DNA of 64,000 nt from contig CP137323.1 in NCBI GenBank assembly GCA_033182465.1, positions 992,001-1,056,000 on the forward strand, read 5' to 3'. This DNA comes from Sanghuangporus weigelae (taxonomy: Eukaryota; Basidiomycota; Agaricomycetes; Hymenochaetales; Hymenochaetaceae). The notes under the pieces are model-generated. The model had not been told where the DNA came from. It saw only the letters and a program-made list of their open reading frames with translations, and did not search any database. Made by a program: the position numbers and the translations under genes. Shown here piece after piece: positions 1-64,000 of the stretch (position 1 is its first letter; each line of letters begins with the position of its first letter).

Positions 1-972
1 ACTTCTGCATAAGAACGCCTTTACCGATAGTCTGGACAAGATGATTGTTCAAGGCACCCTCAAGATATGTCAAGGATATCGAATACTGATCATATAGTCT
101 GTCTGGAATATCCAGGACAACAGACACGGACAAGTTGAGCATCTCCCAAGAGGAGCGTATTGAGAAGCTTTGTGGACCCATCCAACAACTCGACGCTAAA
201 GGAGTCGGCGATGAATTCCAAGTCTTCCCCTGCTTCCGTTGCAGAGCGCAAAGAGAGTGGATAAAACTTCAAGTTGCGGCCTACGGTCATGAAATGAGAT
301 CAAGTTAGTGACAAAAATCTGCAAGCGTGACTACTCACAGGCCCTGCACAAGAAAGGAGATGATGAATGTCAGCTCATGATTTTCCTTACAAGTCATATG
401 CATTTTACCAGATTGACTCGATATTGGCCACTGTTCCATCATCCCCATGCCTCATCTGGATCGTAGTCCGTCATCTTGCTAAGCTGCTTGCCGACGATGA
501 GCTCAATATGTGTGGTGTAGGGTCCTCCTTCAAACGCAACATTATTTGGATTGTAGAACATCGTCGAAAGATATCCCAGAATTGCTGACAGAGTTCGATC
601 CGCACACATATGTGCGCTATAGCGTGGCGAATAGAACGGGAGGGGCCACTGGCCAAGGTTCTGCAACAGAGTTCCGAGTTTGTCCTGGAGTTCTTGAACT
701 TTCGAAACACAAGCACTCTGCGCCTGTATGTCGGACGTGATAAAATTCTAGATTGAGAGTGAATCTATCCCGACTACAGCAAGTAACTGATCGGACGGAA
801 AGTATGCTTGCCGTGCTTCAGTTTGTTTGCTGACAACAACAATATTGAGGCACTGGCTCAGCAGGGCTTGATTTTCCGCCTTTGGACCCAAGAACAGAGC
901 AGAGACGCGCTCATGGTCTTCGCTATCTGGAATCCGGAAAACGGGTTGATCACTTGTCGACGTTCCAGACAT
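1..972 (-). pseudogene. PLP-dependent tyrosine/aromatic-amino-acid decarboxylase, N-terminal part, frame-disrupted
   Basis: Enzymes of this group use pyridoxal phosphate to decarboxylate aromatic amino acids. The start ATG is at 972, and the protein opens MSGTSTSDQPVFRIPDSEDH. A first intron follows SDQ. The next exon carries the family stretch YSPRYSAHM...NPNNVAFEGGP...IELIVGKQLSKM, then DGTVANIESIW, then RNLKFYPLSLR and LDIPDRLY...VQTIGKGVL, running off the left edge. Joining ESIW to RNLKF needs a 5-nt microexon at 339-343. Two frame changes are not explained by introns. One falls between DPDEAWG and DGTVAN (about 432-445), where the Gly-His that normally follows AWG is lost. The other falls after STKLL (about 150-165). 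I infer a pseudogene; two assembly indels are the alternative. The family call is strong and the exact substrate is not known. The C-terminal two thirds, with the catalytic lysine, lie outside the window. Confidence 0.72.
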
Positions 973-2635: not shown

Positions 2636-4351
2636 ATGAGTGAACCAGCACTTCCTGAAGGCGCCTGTATCACAGCCGATATCCCAGATGCGACTATCGC
2701 TCGTCTTGGGGAGATCGTGATAAATCCGTATCGCCTCGCTCCTCTCACAGCTGTCATTCGAGACGGAGGTCAGACGTTGATGGACGCGCGAGTGCGCATT
2801 GTAGGCAAGGGGGATTCTGGAGTAAATATCGACTACCCAGTTTCTAACAGCGCTCTCTGGACTCATGGTGGAATTCCGCTCTTTGGCCTGTATCCCGACT
2901 ATGTGAACAAAGTTGAGGTCGCGTACACACTTAACGGAAAGCGCATTCGTGAGAGATATACGGTATACGCGCCACCCGTTCGCTTGCCTGCAGTCCCGAA
3001 TCAGACAGGAAGTTCGATTCCGCGAGTCGAATCCGTAACAGTCACTTCACAGCTCAAACATCGTCTCTATCTCTTCAATCATCTCGCTCGGATCCCGGGA
3101 AACAGTCGTTTGTTGAAATGGAACACACCACAAGGAGGTGCATTGGAATGGGACACCGTGGGAATAAACTGGATCGCAGATAGTCAGGGAGAAGTGAGAT
3201 GGTATCTGGATATTGAGCAAATTCATGATTCGACAACAAAAGACGGCACCGGTGCGACCATGGGTTTCCAACAAACTCGTGATGGAAGGATCATTTTTGG
3301 GCAGGGCCAACGGTACTACAAAATCGATCTGCTTGGTCGGATCATTTGGGCTCGTACTTTGCCCAGCAAGTTCGCAGACTTCTCCCATGAAATCCGTGAA
3401 ACAACCAAGGGAACATACGTTCTCCGTGTTGCTGCCGCTAACTATCGCCGGACGGATGGGACGCAGACGCGCACCGTACGTGATCATATCATCGAAATAA
3501 ATGCGGACGGCGACGTGCTGGACTTCTGGGATCTCGGTAGCATTCTTGATCCGTATCGCGATCCGTTGCTGCATACGCTAGGTCCCGTAGCAATCTTCCT
3601 GCCTAAGGGTACAAAGAAGACAGATAGTTTGGCAGAGAATGAGAAACTAGAAGGTGAAGGATTGCCATTTGGCGACATCCCCGGAGTGGGGGTAGGGCGG
3701 AACTGGGTGCATGTTAATTCGATCGCCTATGATCCCAAGGACGATAGTATTATCATCTCCGCGCGACATCAGGGTGTTGTGAAAGTTGGACGGGATAAAC
3801 AAGTCAAATGGATCCTTGCGGATCCACGCGGATGGCCGACGCAACTCGTTGACAAAGTCCTCACTCCTGTTGATGCTCAGGGTCAGCCACTCGTTCGTTT
3901 GGAAGATGGGACGTACACCAGCAACTTCGATTGGTCGTGGACCCAACATACGGCATGGCTTTCCGGCCGCGGCACGCTCACCGTATTCGATAATGGCTGG
4001 GGTCGTCAATTGTCTCCAACCAAACTTGAAGGGAACTATAGCCGAGCCGTCGAGTATCGCATCGACGAGGAGAAACACACTGTCGAGCAGGTCTGGGAAT
4101 TCGGAAAGGAGCGTGGTGATGATTGGTACAGTCCAATCACCTCCGTGGTTGAGTATCGTAAGGACACCGATACGCAGGTGATTTACTCTGCCTCCATCGC
4201 CTTCCTAACGCGCGAAAAGCTTGTGCGTCCCGTCCTCAGCGAGGTAAAATACGGCACACAGGAGGTGTTGGCTGAGTATCGCTTGTACAGCCATCAACCC
4301 GGTAATGCGGGCTATCGTGCTTTGGTGATTGATTTGGAAAATGCGTTTTAG
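2636..4351 (+). CDS. Bacterial-type aryl-sulfate sulfotransferase (AssT family), intronless
   Basis: A 571-residue enzyme expected to move sulfate between phenolic donors and acceptors without PAPS. It lines up end to end with enterobacterial AssT as I remember it: an N-terminal beta-sandwich (about 1-125, with LFGLYPDYVNKVEV), then the six-bladed propeller. Catalytic positions are present: His251 (FSHEIRE), His359 (NWVHVNSIAYD), Arg377-His378 (SARHQGVVK) and His438 (WTQHTAW), the last matching the sulfated histidine of the E. coli enzyme. The start is the first ATG giving a full-length match; there is no signal peptide. The Cys pair of E. coli AssT just before WTQHTAW is absent (PLVRLEDGTYTSN here). 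Together these suggest a cytosolic enzyme. The frame has no intron, while nearly every confident neighbour is spliced. That fits acquisition from bacteria, but this is inference. Natural substrate unknown. Confidence 0.9.
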   Translation: MSEPALPEGACITADIPDATIARLGEIVINPYRLAPLTAVIRDGGQTLMDARVRIVGKGDSGVNIDYPVSNSALWTHGGIPLFGLYPDYVNKVEVAYTLNGKRIRERYTVYAPPVRLPAVPNQTGSSIPRVESVTVTSQLKHRLYLFNHLARIPGNSRLLKWNTPQGGALEWDTVGINWIADSQGEVRWYLDIEQIHDSTTKDGTGATMGFQQTRDGRIIFGQGQRYYKIDLLGRIIWARTLPSKFADFSHEIRETTKGTYVLRVAAANYRRTDGTQTRTVRDHIIEINADGDVLDFWDLGSILDPYRDPLLHTLGPVAIFLPKGTKKTDSLAENEKLEGEGLPFGDIPGVGVGRNWVHVNSIAYDPKDDSIIISARHQGVVKVGRDKQVKWILADPRGWPTQLVDKVLTPVDAQGQPLVRLEDGTYTSNFDWSWTQHTAWLSGRGTLTVFDNGWGRQLSPTKLEGNYSRAVEYRIDEEKHTVEQVWEFGKERGDDWYSPITSVVEYRKDTDTQVIYSASIAFLTREKLVRPVLSEVKYGTQEVLAEYRLYSHQPGNAGYRALVIDLENAF

Positions 4352-4510
4352 AATGCTATGATGGTAGTTCCATAATGATCTTGGTTCTGTAAACATATAC
4401 GTGTCAGAAAAATCTTTCTCCGAATTTCGTAGAAGAAAAACATTCGAAGCACTGGACCTTTCCAAAACCATCTACACTGACTATGTCTTTTGAAATTCAC
4501 CAGAATACAT

Positions 4511-4590
4511 ACCCAATGGCTCAACGACGGACCCAATGGCTCAACGACGGACCCAATGGCTCAACGACGGACCCAATGGCTCAACGACGG
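4511..4590. repeat. 20-bp minisatellite, four copies
   Basis: Four head-to-tail copies of ACCCAATGGCTCAACGACGG without a mismatch, 160 bp after the sulfotransferase stop. Perfect identity points to recent expansion. Confidence 0.95.
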
Positions 4591-5271
4591 GTCCAGGGTA
4601 TGTTTCTACAAACACAAACAAGACACCGTACAGCCACCGCTGACTAAATGATTTTACCGTACCGTACTATCTGTTGTTCCGATCTGTAGTAGCTTCAGTA
4701 GGTAGGATTCTCGGCCAATTCCTCAAGGACCACTTGACAGTAACTACAGCGGAGACCTAATTGCCACATACAGTATGAACTTCATATGAGTACATGATGC
4801 CAATATGTTTCTACTAGAGGATCTTTACACCAACCTCCCGTCCTTTTGCCGAAATGTCACAAGCAGAAATATCGGTTGTGTGAAGTTTATGGTGAACTTA
4901 CATGTAAACTTATAGGTAAGCATTCCAACTTCAACCGCACGTGTCATTTTTCTTTTGTTTGTTACTGACATACCTTTTTGAGAGACTAAATGATGGCCAA
5001 TGCGATAATTGCGATTCCTTCCATATACCCACGCGTCGCACAATGGTGCGTTCCCGTCTCTAGATTGCCTTCTTGTCAAAAAGCTTCTTTGCCGCCTCAG
5101 TCATCGCGAAGTCTCATCATGGCCAATGCCGATGCTACTTACGTCTGGGGCCGAGGAAATATTGAATACGGTGAGAATTACTCGGTCCTTCGCACGACGT
5201 CTGTACCCACGGGATATAGCCGAGTCTCTATAGAATGCATATTAAAGCATGATTCGGAAGCGATGCGCTAA
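4591..5271. other. Gene-free stretch upstream of the P450
   Basis: No coding frame with support. It carries the P450 5' region. Confidence 0.4.
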
Positions 5272-5279
5272 CATAAAAG
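5272..5279 (+). promoter_or_regulatory. TATA-like box of the P450 gene
   Basis: CATAAAAG about 75 bp before the ATG at 5347. Confidence 0.4.
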
Positions 5280-5346
5280 GGGGCTACGAGTGCAGCCTGT
5301 GCGTCGTCACACCACTTTCCCATCTTGACTTCACGCAGAAAAGCGA

Positions 5347-7496
5347 ATGTCTTCGTTCGCGAGCAACGGTACCTCCGTATTTACATCCCTCCACGCGGGG
5401 TCTTCGCTTGACATACGAGACAGTATGAGCTATCTGGTTAGTGGTGCCGCCGTCCTTGGCTTCTCCGCCCTACAATACCTGCAAGCTCGAAAGCGTAATG
5501 TATGTTCTGGGGATGTTCCAGATAAGCAGGGATCAATTAAAGCCTTCCGTTAGGTCGATGTTCCCGCAGTTGGTCCCTCCGGCTGGCTGACCTCGTACTA
5601 CGGCGCTCTGAAATATATCCTGGGAGCTCGTCCTATGCTGCAGGAAGGATATGAAAAGGTGAATATATATCGTATTTCAGACGGAAAAGCTGCTAATTGT
5701 TTCATTGTTTCGCTTTTAGTATAAAGCTCGCACATTCAAAGTCCCGGAGCTGAGAAGATGGCTTGTGGTCGTGAATACCCCCGAGCTTATTGATGAGGTG
5801 CGCAAAGCACCGGATGATAAACTTTCATTCTTGGAGGCAGTCAGAGATGTAAGTTCTTATGAACGAATTAGATTTCTAACATTCAGCTTCATTTATTTCA
5901 ACAGTTAATTGCCTCGGAGTTTACTATGGGCCGTCTCATAGATAATGACATGTATCACGTTGCAATTGTACGCTCTCAACTGACGCGAAATATCGCTGCA
6001 TTGTTCGACGGAATCAAGGAGGAAATCGCGCTCGGCTTTGATGAGGGCATTAACGCTTCTGGATCTGGTGAGCAGTCTCTTTGCTTGCACGAATGTTATT
6101 TGATGCGGATTACAATAGAGTGGGTTTCTAGACCTGTGCTATCCACCGTCATGCAGGTCGTCGGAAGAGCAAGTAATAGGGTGTTTGTTGGCCTTCCTGT
6201 CTGTGAGTTTGCACAGATATTTTCTCCGATACATAGCCAAGTATCAATCTGACCTTCATTCAGGCAGGGATAAAGATTATCTTGACATAAACGTTCGCTT
6301 TACTATAGATGTGATCAAAGCATCTCACATTATCAACTTGTTCCCGAACTTCATGAGACGGTAAGTTAGATTTTGTATCAGTAAGTAAGACTGTCAGAAA
6401 TAATGGTATTACCAGGCCGGTCGGAGAGCTCTTGACGTCTGTTCCTGCGACCACCCGTCGAGCATTGAAGCATCTTGGGCCAATCATAGAGTTTCGGTTA
6501 CGTCAAGAGGAAGAGCATGGCCACGACTGGTCTGGGAAGCCTGTCAGTATGCTCCGCTCGGTTTCAATGAGAATCCGATAATTACTGTTTTTCATGTCAG
6601 AATGATACGTTGCAATGGCTAATAGAAGAAGCACCTGAGGGTGAACAACGCACAGTGCTGGCGCTGACACAAAGAGTCCTCGCATTGAATTTTACAGCGA
6701 TCCATACTTCGTCCATGGTAACGTACAGGAGACACGTTTCTCTATGCGTAGACTAATACACATCTTTTTTGCACAGAGTTTCGCGCACGCTCTTCTACAT
6801 CTTGCTGCTCGTCCTGAGTATATCGTACCACTTCGCGAGGAAGTCGAGCACGTGATTCAATCGGAAGGATGGACAAAACTTGCTATGCAAAAGATGAGGA
6901 AGGTCGATAGCTTCCTAAAGGAGAGTCAGCGTTTCACTGGAATCGGGTCATGTACGGTATTTCATTTCTACTTATACGAGTTTTGCCGATGGATTTTGGT
7001 CTTATTGTGCAGTGTCCATGTCCAGAAAGGCCATTGTCGACATGACGCTTTCAGATGGCACGTTCCTTCCTGCGGGTACTCACATTGCATGCAATGCTTT
7101 TGCAGTTCATAATGACGATGACAACTATGAAGATGCTAAAGAATTCCGTCCATTCCGCTTTGCAGAAATACGCGATGGGAGCGCGGAAGAAGGAACAAAG
7201 CACCAATTCGTCTCAACGAGCAATGAGTACCTCCCATTTGGCCACGGTCGTCATGCTTGGTAAACTATCATTTCTCGCTTGTTGAAACAACACGCTAACT
7301 CGGAGCATGTTTGCCTGTGACCAGCCCTGGAAGGTTTTTCGCGGCAAATGAATTGAAGGCAATGCTCGCTTACATTGTACTTGCTTACGATTTCAAGCTA
7401 CCGGATGGCTCACAGCGACCCAAGGATATAGAGTTCGCCCAGGCTCTCGCCCCAGATCCAAAGGCGCATGTTCTATTCAGACGAAGGCAGACCTGA
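5347..7496 (+). CDS. Cytochrome P450 monooxygenase, membrane-anchored
   Basis: Eleven exons join to 522 residues: 5347-5499, 5554-5658, 5720-5848, 5905-6067, 6119-6202, 6264-6360, 6416-6542, 6601-6717, 6777-6951, 7013-7259 and 7325-7496, with all introns GT..AG and frame kept. An N-terminal membrane anchor (SYLVSGAAVLGFSAL) places it on the ER face. The ExxR helix is ESQR in KVDSFLKESQRF. The heme loop is FGHGRHACPGRFF, with the Cys codon split by the last intron. Hydrophobic I-helix residues are LNFTAIHTSS. The loop followed by AANELKAML resembles the ent-kaurene-oxidase-like and basidiomycete CYP512-type enzymes, which oxidise terpenoids. That sub-family is a guess and the substrate is unknown. 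No terpene synthase or other pathway partner is adjacent. Confidence 0.92.
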
Positions 7497-8490: not shown

Positions 8491-9635
8491 TAAGAGCAAA
8501 TTCTTCTATTAGCCTGTTAAGGCATGTAATGCCCGAACCAGAAGGCCTGCTAAAGATAAGTTATTAGAGTAAATGATATGATTCTACCAAGATCTTTTCT
8601 GCTGTGAAGAAATGTCGGTACTAGTGTTGCATCAATGGTACGAACTCGAAGCCCAGGAAAAAATGAAATGGGCATTTGATCGACATTTCCTTAAGTAAGG
8701 TAGGGAAAGTATAAACTCGACTAGCTGTGACGCGCTGTAGTGCGCCGCACTTGCCTGTACCGGTACGTCGGTACAGGCCCCTCAGTACTCTGTACAGTAT
8801 ACCATCGTGCGCCGACCGCTACACCTCCGCCGCTCCTTAAGACCCTCCAAACCGCCGCTCCTTGATTCGCGGCTCAACCAATACGTCCGTCGCCTCCCGT
8901 CCTTCGAAGACTTCCCAAACCGAGTATGCTTGGCCAGCCGCACTTTCTGATATGCGGGCGCCTGGAACGTTGCAGCGGATGTATCGGCTACGGCGGCGGA
9001 AGGATATCGAACCGTATAGCCGATGGAATATTCGTCGGCTCCTGTTGATTGGCTTATCCGACGTCGGGTAGTGGTTTTACAAGGTCCCAGGTACCACGTT
9101 TCATGTTCATACTATGCTGCTTCGTGCGCCGAGTCCGATTGTCGGACGCGGCGGCCACTCGCGTATTCCCCTTTTAGTATTATTGCCTCCCCTGACGTTT
9201 CATATTCGTGTGGTGCGACCACTTAGCGATATGAGCGCGCCCGATGATGATGCGCCGCGCCAATCACCGCCAGCCCGATCAGCGCGCGCCCGTGTCTTGG
9301 CAGCTTTGCGGCGTGCCCCAATCTCCGGGTCCGCACCGATTGCGCGCCTGTGACGCGCCGTCACTGTCGCCGCCTCTGTGACGCTCTTCCCCAGCATTCC
9401 CCAGTATATATAGACCTCATGTATGTAGTGTTCAGAAGCAGTAGTTCAGAATAGATCTCAGTGCACTCCTCTCGTCTCTGTTAGCCCCTTTTGCTCTCTA
9501 TCGCCTTCGCCGAAGACCGTGTGCCGACACAAGACGCCGCCCCCGTTTAAGGGAATAACAGGGGCACGTGCTCACTCGCCACTGCGCAAGTGATCGGCAG
9601 AGCTATCCCCCGTCCTGGCAATCGGCAGCGCCATC

Positions 9636-10235
9636 GCCCTCTTGACAATCAGCGACACCGTCGCTCTCCTGGTAATCGGCAACACCGTCGCTCTCCTGGT
9701 AATCGGCGACACCGTCGCTCTCCTGGTAATCGGTGGCACCGTCGCTCTACTAGTAATCGCCACCGCTCGCAGGACTCGACAGCGCCATCGCCCTCTTGAC
9801 AATCGGCGACACCGTCGCTCTCCTGGTAATCGGCGACACCGTCGCTCTCCTGGTAATCGGCGACACCGTCGCTCTCCTGTTAATCGGCGACACCGTCGCT
9901 CTCCTGTTAATCGGCGACACCGTCGCTCTCCTGGTAATCGGCGACACCGTCGCTCTCCTGGTAATCGGCGACACCGTCGCTCTCCTGGTAATCGGCGGCA
10001 CCGTCGCTCTACTAGTAATCGCCACCGCTCGCAGGACTCGACAGCGCCATCGCCCTCTTGACAATCGGCGACACCGTCGCTCTCCTGGTAATCGGCGACA
10101 CCGTCGCTCTCCTGTTAATCGGCGACACCGTCGCTCTCCTGGTAATCGGCGACACCGTCGCTCTCCTGGTAATCGGCAGCACCGTCGCTCTACTAGTAAT
10201 CGCTGCCGCTCGCAGGACTCGACAGCGCCGTCGCT
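9636..10235. repeat. 27-bp satellite in a higher-order arrangement
   Basis: Unit GGTAATCGGCGACACCGTCG plus CTCTCCT (27 bp). Runs of the unit are separated by a ~73-bp spacer containing AGGACTCGACAGCGCC, at 9771, 10033 and 10214. The spacings of 262 and 181 bp equal the spacer plus 7 and 4 units. Because 27 is a multiple of three and the unit has no stop in several frames, long open frames appear on both strands; I treat them as a by-product. Confidence 0.9.
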
Positions 10236-10802: not shown

Positions 10803-11330
10803 ACTCGGCCACAGGAAGGTATGAAGTGTATAAGATGAATATAAAGGATAAAATGGAGTGAGTGGCTGGAGAAGGCGCCGCTGGGTCGTCTGATAGGATG
10901 CCTGGGTCGTCGGATGGCCGCCGACGTCGAATAGAGGGGTGCCGGACTGAGGGGGAGGCCGCAGGAATCCGCCGCAGTAGCGTAAACGTGATAGATGAAA
11001 GGAAAAGACCGTATAAGATCAATATATGGGATAAACTGGAGTGAAAGGCTGGAAAGGACGCAGAAGGGGAGTCTGATGAGATGCCTGGGTCGTCGGATGG
11101 CCGCCGACGTCGAATAGAGGGGTGCCGGACTGAGGGGGAGGCCGCAGGAATCCGCCGAAGTAGCGTAAACGCGATAGATGAAAGGAAAAGACCGTATAAG
11201 ATCAATATGTGGGATAAACTGGAGTGAAAGGCTGGAAAGGACGCCGAAGGGGAGTCTGATGAGAAGCCTGGGTCGCCGAAGGGTCGCCGACGTCGAATAG
11301 AGGGGCGCCGGATCACTGAACGTCAGAGCG
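10803..11330. repeat. 183-bp tandem repeat
   Basis: The word CGTCGGATGGCCGCCGACGT at 10908 recurs at 11091 and, diverged, at 11274: an exact 183-bp period. About two and a half to three copies. Being 61 codons long, it leaves a minus-strand open frame (10661-11377) with 61-residue repeats (PLYSTSA..RRP, FIYHVYAT). No known domain. Confidence 0.88.
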
Positions 11331-53655: not shown

Positions 53656-54296
53656 AATATGCAAGACAGACTATTTGAGAAAGAAGAACCAATTGTGGCT
53701 AGACGGTGAGCATCGTCTGTCAGACGTGGTCGGTGGGTGAGTCACCGTGTGACCGGACTTGGCACGTGATGTGTGACTGGCGCGTCTCTCGGTCGGCCTT
53801 GGCTGCGAGTCGTGAAACCTTCGCATCCCACGCATCCATTTGGTTTTAGTCGGCTCAATCAATCAAACAAGGGACTCCCAGTTTCAATCTAATGGAACAG
53901 ATTGAGCGTAGTATACAGAAATATTACAGTAAAATCAGTAATCTGTTTCGACATCGAAGCGAATCCACTTAGCCTTCCGACTCGGATTGTCTCCTTCGTC
54001 CTGATGTACAATTCCGTGATGTGATCATCCTGTCCGGAATGCGAAGTCGATGGAAACTGACCTGGAACCACATTCTTGTCTTATACTCAGAAGGCCGATA
54101 AGTTCCAAATTGTGGACGAAACCACGAGCGCCGCCAAAGCAGCACAAGTGCTGTAAACATCATAGGCCTTCTGACTCCCGAACGAACACACACAGTGTTA
54201 TTCAATTTCAATTAAACAACTGACTCGCGATTGTACAGTATACAGGATAGATCGAGTACAGGACAACAATATCAATACAGGCAACTTGACTAGCCA
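53656..54296. other. Spacer; right part belongs to the kinase duplication
   Basis: No gene. From about 53806 the sequence is repeated, with few differences, from 60733. Confidence 0.6.
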
Positions 54297-56988
54297 TTAG
54301 TGTGTTTCTACATCAGAGCGAATCCTCTTCGTCTTCGGTTCTTCCTCTTCTCCTTCCTCCTCCTCTTCCTCCTTAGTATCATGCTCATTTCGTTCCGGTA
54401 TGGGATCCATAGTTCCTAGGTGATCGGTGGAAGTGTACGAAATGGGCTGAACTGGCATGCGGCTGTCGGGTTCGTGACGCCGTTTCCCTTTTTGTGTGCT
54501 TGACGATGGGATATTCACTTGCTTCGCCCTAGCGTCGAGTGGCCAGTTCTTGAGATCTTCCACCTCCCTGAGAAGCTTGAGGATCATTTCACGAATCCTC
54601 AATCCACCACCTTCCGCCTTCTTCAGCATCTCACCTTGCGCTTTGATTACATCAGTTTGATGCCTATCGGGAGTGTAGATAGGCAAGAATAAGTCTGAGA
54701 AGTCAATCAAAAGGTCGCGTAGTCCAGGCCGATCAGGGAAGTCCAAATCCTCGACATAGTTGCCCCCAGACAGTTTGAAGCATTTCGCGCGGCCACCGCT
54801 GACCTTACCGTCGGTGCATTCTTTCTCTTCGTCGAACATTGCCAGGAAATCGGTTAGATCGTCGGTACTCAACGATGAGTTTGTACATCGGACCAGAGTG
54901 AAGGTCAGCGCGTGAAGGAAAGACTCTAGATCGTCGACATAATCATGAACCTTTGTCTTCGAAAGTCTCAGAAGCAGCCCAGATATGAATTGCCACGTGC
55001 CCTAAGAGAAGCTTCAGCTAATCTGAGACATAATGAATGGAAGAAGGAGCATACCGTACGTCCCGGACGATGCGAATAACCTTGATTGGCATGCCTGCAG
55101 AGATCCCAGTCAATCAATCTACCTGACCCATCATCCATGATTAACACATTTCCAGGGCTTATATCTCGATGAAGGATTTCTGCCTCGAACATAGCATCAC
55201 AGTGGCCTGCAGAGTATCAGCAACGGGAAGAATCAGGACCGACATTCAAGCGCTTACATAATAAAGCATCTGCAACTGCCCGCAAGAGTACTGTAGTAGA
55301 TGGGAACGAAGTCAGATCACGCCCAACCTCTTTGAGGACAATCCGATAATGAGAATAACCGAGCATATTTCTCTGCAGGAACATCTTGTCGCCACAAACC
55401 CAATCCTCGAGGATGAATTTATCGGTCATAGTGCAATGGACCGTGTTGTACATGCGACCGCGAATAGGCATCTGCTCCGTTTCCTCAGAGGATGAGGCCA
55501 ACGCATTCGATGAGTCGGGGTCACGAAACGCCTTTAAATCGGTGTGCACGGCGCAAGTCGGTTTTTCTGTGCAAAGCTCGTCCAATTTTCGAACGTCGCC
55601 GGCGGTCACAAGTGGAATAAGGTTCCGCACGTTGCATCGCTCCATTTTCTCGTACGATATGTGTTCGACCACGACCATATCCATGTCGATTCTCCAGGAG
55701 TCCTTTAGCCAACAGATCTGTCCGCTTTCTGGGTCAAAAGCAGGCGTCCCACGCGAGTTGCGGCCCAACAACGAGCATGCCCATCGTCTCGGAAAAGTGC
55801 CAATGTAACTTTTAAACTTCATTGCACCTGTTTCCTGTCCCACATGAAGAACTGGGACCAAGAACTTGAAGTATCTCGCTCTCCGAAAGTATTCAGATCG
55901 ATCTTGAAACTCTTGCTCACTTTCGTAATTAAAACGATGCTGAATCAGAGCTTTCCTAGCGTTCTTTAACGATTCTCCGTCGATCGCGGTCGCGGGACGG
56001 ACAGTCCAATCCCAGCCACGTTGAAGCTGCGATAGCCTACTGAAGCGTTCAAGGAAATCCACAAGCCAGGATACCTCGATATATTTGAATGATCTGGTGA
56101 CAACCGCGCCGGCTCTGTCCCAGCGAATCAAGCGAGCAGAATCACCCGCAATGAGCACAGAGAAGCAGTGAGTTCGGAACGACATTCCCATTTGCGCGGC
56201 TGCGTAGGAAGTGATCTGTCCGATTATCTCCTGAGATGCATTGTCACTTCTTACGAATTCGTGCTTCGCCACGTTGACACCTTCTTTGGGGTCTTTGAAC
56301 GGATCCTTGGAACGCTTTGGTTTGAGTTCCATAGGGAATTCCATCTTCGAGAAGTCTGTCACGCGATCCGAGAGGCTTGAGCGCGCCTGACGATAAGCAG
56401 AGATGTCGGGAGCTAGACCCTCAATGACCCAGTTTGGATCACCTTTGTAGGCCGTTTTTGCGAAGCGTAAATTACTGATCTTTAGCTTGTTCAGCGCTTG
56501 TATCTTATAGGAGATAATCAATGGAGAGGCAAATAATATGAAAGGAAGCTACGCACCAGCGGGTCATACATCTCCAATTCAACCTTCCAGTTGTTATCCA
56601 ACGTAAAATCTAGTCCTTTGCTCCTATTTCTCCTTCTTGTACCATATGCATGAGTAGGCTTGACGAATGCCTCCAAAAACTGCTCGACCGGCATAGGACC
56701 GAGAAAGTACTTATGTGTTTCGCGGTACATGTCTTTCTTGTTGTCCGAAGCTTTTATTGTGGGTGAACAATCATATAACTTGCCCGACGCCTTTCTATGA
56801 ATAGGAGTGGAAAACTGGAGTAACGCGCTAACAGGGGCGCCGGGCGACACGTGTGGTGGTGTCCGTGGAGGCTCTGCAGCCGCACGCTCCAAGAACGGAG
56901 GAGCACTGGCACTGATGATGTATAGAAGAGAAGGCACGTGAGTGACACTAATATCATGTGATCGCGTCCAGCAAGCCAACCTTTCCAT
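54297..56988 (-). CDS. FunK1 fungal-type protein kinase, copy A
   Basis: Four exons (56557-56988, 55258-56503, 55055-55206, 54297-55001), 844 residues. FunK1 kinases are a basidiomycete expansion of uncertain function. The N-terminal part carries the family lead (PMPVEQFLEAF, VELEMYDPL, SYAAAQMGMSFRTHCFSVLI, ARLIRWDRAGAVVT). The kinase core has FILEDWVCGDKMF, RIVLKEVGRDL, catalytic LHRDISPGNVLI and LIDWDLC in place of DFG, then GTWQFIS, DDLESFLHAL. The C-terminal tail is acidic (DTKEEEEEEGEEEEP) followed by a basic TKRIR, a possible nuclear signal. The start is the ATG of MERLACWTRSHD, shared with copy B; an upstream in-frame extension is open only in copy A. A TATA-like run lies about 85 bp upstream. 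Confidence 0.92.
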
Positions 56989-57068
56989 TTCGAATGCAAC
57001 AGAGAATAGTAGCAGGATATCGTTCGAGTGAGAGCTAAGAGTTGGGTATAGAGTAGTGAGTGCAGAGA

Positions 57069-57076
57069 ATATATAT
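57069..57076 (-). promoter_or_regulatory. TATA-like run of FunK1 copy A
   Basis: ATATATAT about 85 bp upstream of the ATG at 56988. The same bases end the window at 63993-64000 for copy B. Confidence 0.4.
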
Positions 57077-60732: not shown

Positions 60733-63700
60733 CGAGTCGTGAAACCGTCGCATCCCAAGCATCCATTTGGTTTTAGTCGGCTCGATCAATCAAACAAGGG
60801 ACTCCCAGCTTCAATCTAATGGAACAGATTGAGCGTAGTATACAGAAATATTACAGTAATATCAGTAATCTGTTTCGACATCGAAGCGAATCCACTTAGT
60901 CTTCCGACTCGGATTGTCTCCTTCGTCCTGATGTACAATTCCGTGATGTGATCATCCTGTCCGGAATGCGAAGTCGATGGAAACTGACCTAGAACCACAT
61001 TCTTGTCTTATACTCAGAAGGCCGATAAGCTCCGGGCTGTGGACGAAGCCACGAGCGCCACACAAGTGCTGTAAATATCATAGGCCTTCTGGCTCTCGAA
61101 CGAACGCACACAGTTTTATTCAATTTCAATTAAACAACTGACTCGCGATTGTACAGTATACAGGATAGATCGAGTACAGGACAACAATATCAATACAGGC
61201 AACTTGACTAGCCATTAGTGTATTTCTACGTCAGAGCGAATCCTCTTCGTCTTCGGTTCTTCCTCTTCTCCTTCCTCCTCCTCTTCCTCCTTGGTATCAT
61301 GCTCATTTCGTTCCGGGATGGGATCCATAAATCCTGAGAGATGATCGGAAGTGTAAGAGACGGACTGAACTGGCATACGGGAGTCCTCCTCGCGACGTCG
61401 TTTTCCTTTTTGAGAGCTCGACAAGGTGATACCCACTCTCTTCGACCCAGGATTTTGCACCCAATCCTTGAAGTCTTCCACAGACTTGAGAAGCTCAAGA
61501 ATCATCCCACGAATCTTCATCCCCCCTCCAATCTCCGTCTTGAGCATTTCCCTCTGCGCTTTGGTATCCTCGGTTTGCAATCGACCGTCAAGGTAGATAG
61601 GCATGAACAAGTCTGCGAAATCGACTAACAGGTCGCGTAGTCTAGGTCGACCAGGGAAGTCCAAATTCTTGGCATAGATACGCGCAGCCAATTTGTCACA
61701 TTTCGCACTACCACCTTTAATCTTGCCGTTAGCGCATTCTCGCTCTTCATCAAATCTTGCCAAGAATTCAATGAGGCCGTCCGCATCCAACGACGAGCTC
61801 GAAAATCGGACCAAAGCGAATGTTAATGCGTGAAGGAAAGATTCCAAATCGTCGATATAATCGTGGATCTTGTTGCTGGGGTCGCTCAGGAGAGATCCAG
61901 AAATAAACTGCCATGTGCCCTGAATGAAACATCTGATTCTGCGACACACAAGTGAAGAGAAATAAAATGAACTTACAGTACGACCCGGACGATTCGACTG
62001 ACCTTGCTCGGCGTGTCTGCAAAGATCCCAATCAATCAATCTGCCCGTACCATCTTCCATAATTAAAACGTTGCCCGGGCTTATGTCACGATGAAGGATT
62101 TTTGCCTGGAACTGAGCATCGCAGTGGCCTGCGCGAAATGCGGTTATTTTGATGAGTCATGGAATACAACCTATTACTTACACAACAACGCATCCGCGAC
62201 CGCTTGCAAGAGCACCGTAGTAGATGGGAACGAAGTCAGATCACGCCCAACCTCTTTGAGGACAATCCGATAATGAGAATAACCGAGCATATTTCTCTGC
62301 AGGAACATCTTGTCGCCACAGACCCAATCCTCGAGGATGAATTTATCGGTCATAGTGCAATGGACCGTGTTGTACATGCGACCGCGAATAGGCATCTGCT
62401 CCGTTTCCTCAGAGGATGAGGCCAACGCATTCGATGAGTCGGGGTCACGAAACGCCTTTAAATCGGTGTGCACGGCGCAAGTCGGTTTTTCTGTGCAAAG
62501 CTCGTCCAATTTTCGAACGTCGCCGGCGGTCACAAGTGGAATAAGGTTCCGCACGTTGCATCGCTCCATTTTCTCGTACGATATGTGTTCGACCACGACC
62601 ATATCCATGTCGATTCTCCAGGAGTCCTTTAGCCAACAGATCTGTCCGCTTTCTGGGTCAAAAGCAGGCGTCCCACGCGAGTTGCGGCCCAACAACGAGC
62701 ATGCCCATCGTCTCGGAAAAGTGCCAATGTAACTTTTAAACTTCATTGCACCTGTTTCCTGTCCCACATGAAGAACTGGGACCAAGAACTTGAAGTATCT
62801 CGCTCTCCGAAAGTATTCAGATCGATCTTGAAACTCTTGCTCACTTTCGTAATTAAAACGATGCTGAATCAGAGCTTTCCTAGCGTTCTTTAACGATTCT
62901 CCGTCGATCGCGGTCGCGGGACGGACAGTCCAATCCCAGCCACGTTGAAGCTGCGATAGCCTACTGAAGCGTTCAAGGAAATCCACAAGCCAGGATACCT
63001 CGATATATTTGAATGATCTGGTGACAACCGCGCCGGCTCTGTCCCAGCGAATCAAGCGAGCAGAATCACCCGCAATGAGCACAGAGAAGCAGTGAGTTCG
63101 GAACGACATTCCCATTTGCGCGGCTGCGTAGGAAGTGATCTGTCCGATTATCTCCTGAGATGCATTGTCACTTCTTACGAATTCGTGCTTCGCCACGTTG
63201 ACACCTTCTTTGGGGTCTTTGAACGGATCCTTGGAACGCTTTGGTTTGAGTTCCATAGGGAATTCCATCTTCGAGAAGTCTGTCACGCGATCCGAGAGGC
63301 TTGAGCGCGCCTGACGATAAGCAGAGATGTCGGGAGCTAGACCCTCAATGACCCAGTTTGGATCACCTTTGTAGGCCGTTTTTGCGAAGCGTAAATTACT
63401 GATCTTTAGCTTGTTCAGCGCTTGTATCTTATAGGAGATAATCAATGGAGAGGCAAATAATATGAAAGGAAGCTACGCACCAGCGGGTCATACATCTCCA
63501 ATTCAACCTTCCAGTTGTTATCCAACGTAAAATCTAGTCCTTTGCTCCTATTTCTCCTTCTTGTACCATATGCATGAGTAGGCTTGACGAATGCCTCCAA
63601 AAACTGCTCGACCGGCATAGGACCGAGAAAGTACTTATGTGTTTCGCGGTACATGTCTTTCTTGTTGTCCGAAGCTTTTATTGTGGGTGAACAATCATAT

Positions 63701-64000
63701 AACTTGCCCGACGCCTTTCTATGAATAGGAGTGGAAAACTGGAGTAACGCGCTAACAGGGGCGCCGGGCGACACGTGTGGTGGTGTCCGTGGAGGCTCTG
63801 CAGCCGCACGCTCCAAGAACGGAGGAGCACTGGCACTGATGATGTATAGAAGAGAAGGCACGTGAGTGACACTAATATCATGTGATCGCGTCCAGCAAGC
63901 CAACCTTTCCATTTCGAATGCAACAGAGAATAGTAGCAGGATATCGTTCGAGTGAGAGCTAAGAGTTGGGTATAGAGTAGTGAGTGCAGAGAATATATAT
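60733..64000. repeat. Segmental duplication, right copy (runs off the window)
   Basis: Direct copy of 53806-57076. It ends at the window edge still inside the identical stretch, in the promoter. Confidence 0.93.
61215..63912 (-). CDS. FunK1 fungal-type protein kinase, copy B
   Basis: Four exons (63481-63912, 62182-63427, 61977-62128, 61215-61919) with exactly the exon lengths of copy A (432, 1246, 152, 705 nt), again 844 residues. Exon 1 and almost all of exon 2 look identical to copy A; I saw one silent base change. From the end of exon 2 the copies part: LLQAVADALL against LLRAVADALL, then many substitutions in exon 4 (for example ARIYAKNLDFPGRPRLRDLL here, GNYVEDLDFPDRPGLRDLL in A). Catalytic HRDISPGNVLI and DWDLC are kept. 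The acidic tail and TKRIR are again nearly the same. An intact frame suggests both copies are or were functional. Confidence 0.92.

Follow-up and report, generated by a model that had tools for sequence, protein, structure and literature searches.

The sequence analysed here (the window) is a 64,000-nucleotide stretch of the Sanghuangporus weigelae genome, corresponding to positions 992001-1056000 of contig C6. Close to its start lies a single open reading frame encoding a 571-residue protein of the arylsulfate sulfotransferase (AssT) family, which is flanked on one side by the 5' part of an aromatic amino acid decarboxylase gene and on the other by a short tandem repeat and a spliced cytochrome P450 gene (Table 1). 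A glyoxal-oxidase-like gene lies beyond the decarboxylase, and a gene for a fungal protein kinase of the PF17667 family is found further to the right in the window.

Table 1. Features of the AssT locus, in window coordinates
Feature	Position	Strand	Basis
Non-canonical aromatic amino acid decarboxylase gene, 5' part, truncated	442..972	-	match to PDB 6ebn
AssT ORF, intronless, 571 aa, pseudomonad-type, predicted cytosolic	2636..4351	+	ORF, Pfam, phmmer, tree, structure match
PF17425 N-terminal Ig-like domain, residues 27-113	2714..2974	+	Pfam E 2e-25
PF05935 AssT catalytic domain, residues 135-561	3038..4318	+	Pfam E 6.6e-122; Foldseek 4p04/3ets, TM 0.86
His251 codon, catalytic (E. coli H252)	3386..3388	+	alignment
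H359-V-N361 codons (E. coli H356, N358)	3710..3718	+	alignment
Arg377 codon (E. coli R374)	3764..3766	+	alignment
His438 codon, sulfated histidine by family (E. coli H436)	3947..3949	+	alignment; H436N mutant 4p04 matches here
Tandem repeat, perfect, 20 bp x 4	4511..4590	.	160 bp after AssT stop
P450 gene, spliced, downstream	5425..7496	+	heme motif FGHGRHAC across intron; start codon is our reading

The AssT frame contains no stop within its 571 codons, and an in-frame TGA lies five codons 5' of the ATG. Both domains of the family pass the Pfam cut-off of 24.2 bits by a wide margin (PF05935, 407.6 bits; PF17425, 89.1 bits), and the match to the catalytic domain spans positions 6-374 of the 374-position profile. 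A phmmer search of the PDB recovered the E. coli AssT crystal structure 3elq with an E-value of 1.4e-144 over residues 21-567. In the alignment, the fungal residues H251, H359, N361, R377 and H438 correspond to H252, H356, N358, R374 and H436 of E. coli, which make up the catalytic list given in E. coli numbering in the available part of an earlier account of the family (PMC10932419). The chain of the H436N mutant (4p04) accordingly shows an asparagine in the column of the fungal H438. All five residues are retained in each of the 78 bacterial sequences (rows) of the tree set described below; two distant sequences outside this set differ in this regard, with L062 retaining all five and L097 having a lysine at position 377. 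An AlphaFold2 model built from a 20-row alignment (mean pLDDT 79.7, pTM 0.84) was compared with the PDB using Foldseek, and the top nine entries were all AssT structures with TM scores of 0.84-0.86, followed by the Streptomyces protein Cpz4. The related family PF14269 (Arylsulfotran_2) gave no match to the fungal protein up to an E-value of 1, and an NCBIfam search assigned it to no family. The protein contains a single cysteine (C11), and its N-terminus is not hydrophobic according to a hydropathy-window heuristic (maximum 1.0). With just one match to PF05935 in the 33.87-Mb, 13-contig genome, the gene is single-copy. The locus is a full-length bacterial-type AssT with intact catalytic residues, as a preliminary description made from the letters alone had claimed. 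The same description held the gene to be intronless amid spliced genes, and the uninterrupted frame next to the GT-AG-spliced P450 bears this out. Its view of the product as a cytosolic member of a PAPS-independent family is likewise consistent with the absence of a signal-peptide-like N-terminus and of a cysteine pair, and with the PF17425-PF05935 architecture with its retained catalytic residues.

To identify relatives we used a pattern-based scan of a genome collection covering 84,980 species, which returned 58 AssT loci. Those of pseudomonads and of Azotobacter/Azomonas are 65-71% identical to the fungal protein and one from a Rhodocyclaceae MAG 69%, while the AssTs of other groups are at 43-48%. 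In a sample of the Azotobacter family, matches were obtained in 29 of 398 genomes and were full-length in 27, with identities of up to 73%; a Rhodocyclaceae sample gave matches in 3 of 297 genomes, one of them full-length, and a phylum-level sample in 6 of 398, with the Azotobacter genome itself among them. The closest relatives by BLAST are thus 65-73% identical, and belong to the Pseudomonadaceae and the one Rhodocyclaceae MAG. The plasmid collection yielded 16 records, all below 60% identity, and the scan of the viral_contigs collection gave no match. Several further features of the bacterial loci were apparent. In Azotobacter vinelandii a second AssT-like protein (L003:2448-3821; PF05935 2e-23, PF14269 4e-19) is encoded directly before the AssT relative. 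Three of the genomes sampled from the Azotobacter family contain AssT fragments, namely those of L092 (G417), L093 (G332) and L094 (G002:C1:2469971-2470153), with internal stops in the pieces from G417 and G332, suggesting that the gene decays in places. The AssT of Pantoea sp. Ap-967 (L022) groups inside the Pseudomonas putida group, and this genome is possibly misnamed.

The protein search and phylogeny against bacterial AssT that the preliminary description had proposed point to a bacterial clade. A quick tree was computed from 79 rows, after merging identical proteins, dropping eight that were partial or below 30% identity (L056, L059, L061, L092, L093, L094, L098, L099) and removing by hand the distant L062 and L097 (25-27%). 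A more careful tree was then built from 36 of the 79 rows, hand-picked for spread. In the latter the fungal protein falls, with 25 bacterial rows, into a 26-row clade of predicted cytosolic AssTs with a support of 100/100. Within this clade the forks next to the fungal protein carry supports of 45/0 and 55/53, and neither a position outside all 25 bacteria as their sister (p-AU 0.27) nor a grouping with L065/L066/L069/L070 (p-AU 0.37) was rejected. The quick tree had joined it to these same four sequences with a support of 96, whereas the careful tree did not. A placement with the signal-peptide-bearing AssTs of Budvicia and Leminorella was rejected (p-AU 6e-5). The fungal branch is long (0.36 in the 36-row tree). 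The fungal protein belongs to the pseudomonad-type cytosolic clade, with its inner position left ambiguous by the tree. As all the remaining sequences of the tree set, both inside and outside this clade, are bacterial, the direct reading is a transfer from bacteria to the fungus.

The composition of the gene is closer to that of its present host than to that of its relatives. Its GC3 of 0.52 falls within the range of five putative native ORFs (0.48-0.72), whereas ten of the bacterial relatives lie at 0.80-0.90. Its codon usage correlates at 0.69 with the pooled native ORFs and at 0.25 with the pooled bacterial ones. When six native ORFs of at least 800 bases were each left out in turn, they gave correlations of 0.55-0.86 with the other natives and of 0.16-0.77 with the bacteria; this measure is soft, because the native glyoxal-oxidase-like ORF lies nearer to the bacterial set (0.77) than to the other natives (0.55). 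Comparison of the fungal gene with L065, L069 and L003 shows differences at 0.73-0.76 of four-fold sites and at 0.15-0.17 of second codon positions. At second positions this is similar to the divergence within four bacterial pairs (0.11-0.16), whose four-fold sites differ by 0.34-0.44. At the protein level, 81 of the 82 columns that are invariant in the 78 bacteria are unchanged in the fungal AssT, and 17 of the 280 columns invariant in the 59 close rows are changed. The fungal AssT protein is thus constrained. Large synonymous change coupled with little excess change in the protein points to selection acting since the transfer. The exception would be a donor that was itself of low GC, which would also explain the composition. 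The reading that best accounts for these observations, to which we assign a probability of about 0.85, is that the fungus acquired a cytosolic AssT of the pseudomonad type by horizontal transfer long ago, and that the enzyme has been kept by purifying selection and likely operates by a PAPS-independent sulfo-histidine relay, with the activity, location and substrates inferred from relationship.

The gene might further be old and widespread in fungi, going back to an ancient shared transfer. This is compatible with the long-resident transfer favoured above, as it concerns age and spread, and we entertain it as a tentative possibility somewhat short of an even chance. The long branch, the compositional fit and the ambiguous sister group are all compatible with such an age. 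In addition, a review reports 1,747 sulfotransferase genes in FungiDB, retrieved through six InterPro entries, among them the one for AssT (IPR010262), the total being that over all entries in the part of the review available (PMC11625862), so that further PF05935 genes may well exist in fungi. Against great age and spread speaks the uninterrupted 571-codon frame in a neighbourhood of spliced genes. Moreover, a plant review, in its accessible text, states that plants lack PF05935 and that both aryl families, PF05935 and PF14269, are found especially in prokaryotes (PMC4199319). A literature search of partial coverage, mostly outside subscription journals, likewise found no publication describing a mushroom AssT of the PF05935 family.

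The neighbouring genes raise the question of whether the AssT acts in a working biosynthetic cluster, in which the decarboxylase would make phenolic-amine acceptors and the P450 would also take part. The left neighbour, beginning about 1.7 kb upstream on the opposite strand, is indeed a relative of a known decarboxylase (E 9e-44 to 6ebn), the right neighbour is a P450, and the Psilocybe decarboxylase is reported, in the portion of the study available, to take Tyr and Trp (PMC13062060). However, the decarboxylase gene consists of two pieces that correspond to residues 63-157 and 322-469 of the 1013 of 6ebn, the second of which (L063 9422-9862, minus strand) lies upstream of the window. Its frame stops where the homology reaches residue 469, the piece that follows has no PDB match, and the roughly 1.1 kb between the end of the frame and the end of the next gene is too short for the 544 missing residues. 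The gene is truncated within its catalytic domain and is treated here as a relic; the same part of the Psilocybe study states that all activity is lost without the C-terminal domain (PMC13062060). Because of this truncation the phenolic-amine cluster was rejected and no gene cluster is claimed, such an arrangement being in our view very unlikely.

An assembly chimera or bacterial contamination, with which an intronless gene would be compatible, is more improbable still. Within a contig of 2.71 Mb, the AssT gene is located at about 995 kb with fungal genes on either side, and its composition is unlike that of the ten potential donors compared. The P450 starts about 1.1 kb 3' of it, and its heme motif FGHGRHACPGR is joined across a 65-bp GT-AG intron that splits the heme Cys codon, which is restored on splicing. 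The Psilocybe-related decarboxylase gene lies on the other side. Of ten neighbouring segments searched against Pfam, five pass the curated cut-off, one is a weak match and four have no match; none of the five passing segments belongs to a bacterial-only family. The flanks at 1000-2635 and 4352-5400 match themselves only across the genome, in a search that omits simple repeats and very common words, and this also led us to reject an insertion of the gene within a repeated element. We accordingly read the sequence surrounding the AssT gene as fungal chromosome, and the long contig with its fungal neighbours speaks against the bacterial contaminant contig that the preliminary description had considered as an alternative to residence in the fungus. 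Elsewhere in the window, 54001-57076 and 60928-64000 are tandemly duplicated segments, each about 3.1 kb long and 91% identical, holding the PF17667 kinase gene. GC-richer tandem arrays are present at 9613-10202 (27-bp unit x 22, also read as 262 bp x 2.3) and at 10828-11312 (183-bp unit x 2.7), and Rfam gave no match over the window.

To trace the origin of the predicted cytosolic form, the N-termini and the loop 412-439 were compared in the 78 bacterial rows, using a 13-residue hydropathy window with a threshold of 1.6. The 59 rows at 67-73% alignment identity, which comprise Pseudomonas, Azotobacter, Azomonas and the one Rhodocyclaceae MAG, show neither a hydrophobic N-terminus (0/59) nor a loop cysteine (0/59), and all of them possess C11 (59/59). 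In the 19 rows at 43-48%, on the other hand, the hydrophobic N-terminus (maximum hydropathy 1.7-2.4) and at least two loop cysteines are both universal (19/19 each); this joint presence is limited to rows of that identity, because the distant L062 and L097 (25-27%) carry the hydrophobic N-terminus and lack the loop cysteines. Since the start of each row was taken as the most upstream ATG within 45 codons, some of these N-termini may be too long. The fungal protein has no cysteine in the loop, and its N-terminal segment LPEGACITA aligns with the N-termini of its bacterial relatives. With both features missing from all 59 close relatives, the cytosolic form is the state of the donor clade rather than one made by the fungus, and the absence of the signal peptide and of the cysteine pair probably predates the transfer. 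The occurrence of AssTs with and without signal peptides is already noted, with reference to earlier work, in the available part of the above account (PMC10932419). The preliminary description had instead proposed that the fungus lost both features in adapting the enzyme to the cytosol; its comparison was with the enterobacterial enzyme, whose crystal structure does have the cysteine pair by alignment, but the nearest relatives found are the pseudomonad AssTs, and their traits rule this loss out to near certainty.

Taken together, these observations suggest a scenario in which a fungal ancestor acquired a pseudomonad-type AssT gene that already lacked the signal peptide and the cysteine pair. 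The gene would have settled intronless in the nuclear genome and drifted toward the host base composition while being held by purifying selection. Its product is predicted to be a cytosolic, PAPS-independent arylsulfate sulfotransferase, both in location and in activity. The AssT reaction is described as proceeding in two half-reactions, with the sulfuryl group passing via a histidine, in the text available of the above account (PMC10932419). In the fungal enzyme, an aryl sulfate would donate its sulfuryl group to His438, and a phenol would then accept it from the resulting sulfo-histidine. The sulfate would probably be held during transfer by H251, H359, N361 and R377. As in its bacterial relatives, neither a disulfide nor export would be needed.

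The substrates may be plant or soil phenolic sulfates, from which the group would be transferred to phenols, and the benefit to the fungus could lie in recycling or detoxifying phenols. In an exon-wise scan of the genome, which recovers spliced genes (PF00282, 11 exon matches) yet can miss families, there were no PF00685 sulfotransferases and no match to PF14269, and PF00884 gave one match below the cut-off. As no PF00685 member was recovered by these exon-wise scans, no intracellular source of aryl sulfates is visible, and the simplest guess is that they are taken up from outside. One might go further and regard the AssT as the sole phenol-sulfating or desulfating enzyme of the fungus, a PAPS-free cytosolic 'phase II' fed by environmental aryl sulfates, perhaps with 'phase I' supplied by the P450 next to it, but we consider this extension unlikely.

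Among known systems, the predicted cytosolic AssTs of the Pseudomonadaceae (Azotobacter vinelandii, Azomonas macrocytogenes and the P. putida group) are the nearest counterparts, sharing with the fungal protein 65-73% identity from end to end, all the catalytic residues, the conserved C11, and the lack of a cysteine pair and of a signal-peptide-like N-terminus. They differ from it in GC3, which in the fungal gene is fungal-like, and in setting. In P. putida KH-21-134 the AssT gene lies behind a TonB receptor gene, which is itself preceded by a divergent LysR gene, a setting that suits sulfate-ester uptake, whereas the fungal gene lies among fungal genes and no TonB receptor or LysR genes were seen beside it. 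We take the enzyme of this type in P. putida S-313 to be the one named AstA, and the P. putida neighbourhood presumably corresponds to the genes named SftR/SftP/AstA; a literature search of partial coverage found nothing on P. putida AstA. The enterobacterial periplasmic AssTs (PDB 3elq, 3ets, 3ett, 4p04-4p07), whose partners are presumably DsbL/DsbI, share the fold (TM 0.86), the domains and the catalytic residues. They are 41-42% identical in structural alignment and differ in the loop that precedes the catalytic histidine, where they possess a cysteine pair absent in the fungal protein. The Arylsulfotran_2 family has no more than a broad name in common with the fungal AssT. Genes annotated as 'arylsulfotransferase' are on record for the fungi Cryptococcus, Beauveria and Raffaelea, and in the available parts of these sources they appear by name alone (PMC3744442, PMC12142624, PMC7441637). 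A precedent for the transfer of an AssT from a bacterium to a eukaryote is provided by the ant Colobopsis sp., whose gene has its closest match in Sodalis, according to the part of that report available, and which thus involves a different donor and a different host kingdom (PMC13320244). If confirmed, the fungal case would bring into the fungal cytosol an enzyme from a bacterial clade, transferring sulfuryl groups without PAPS, and would represent a clean instance of a trait fitting the cytosol, namely the lack of an export signal and of a disulfide, that existed in the donor lineage before the transfer. The enzyme also lends itself to a simple assay. As a protein, the fungal AssT does not stand out from the known bacterial clade to which it belongs, and the surprise lies in the host rather than in the machine.
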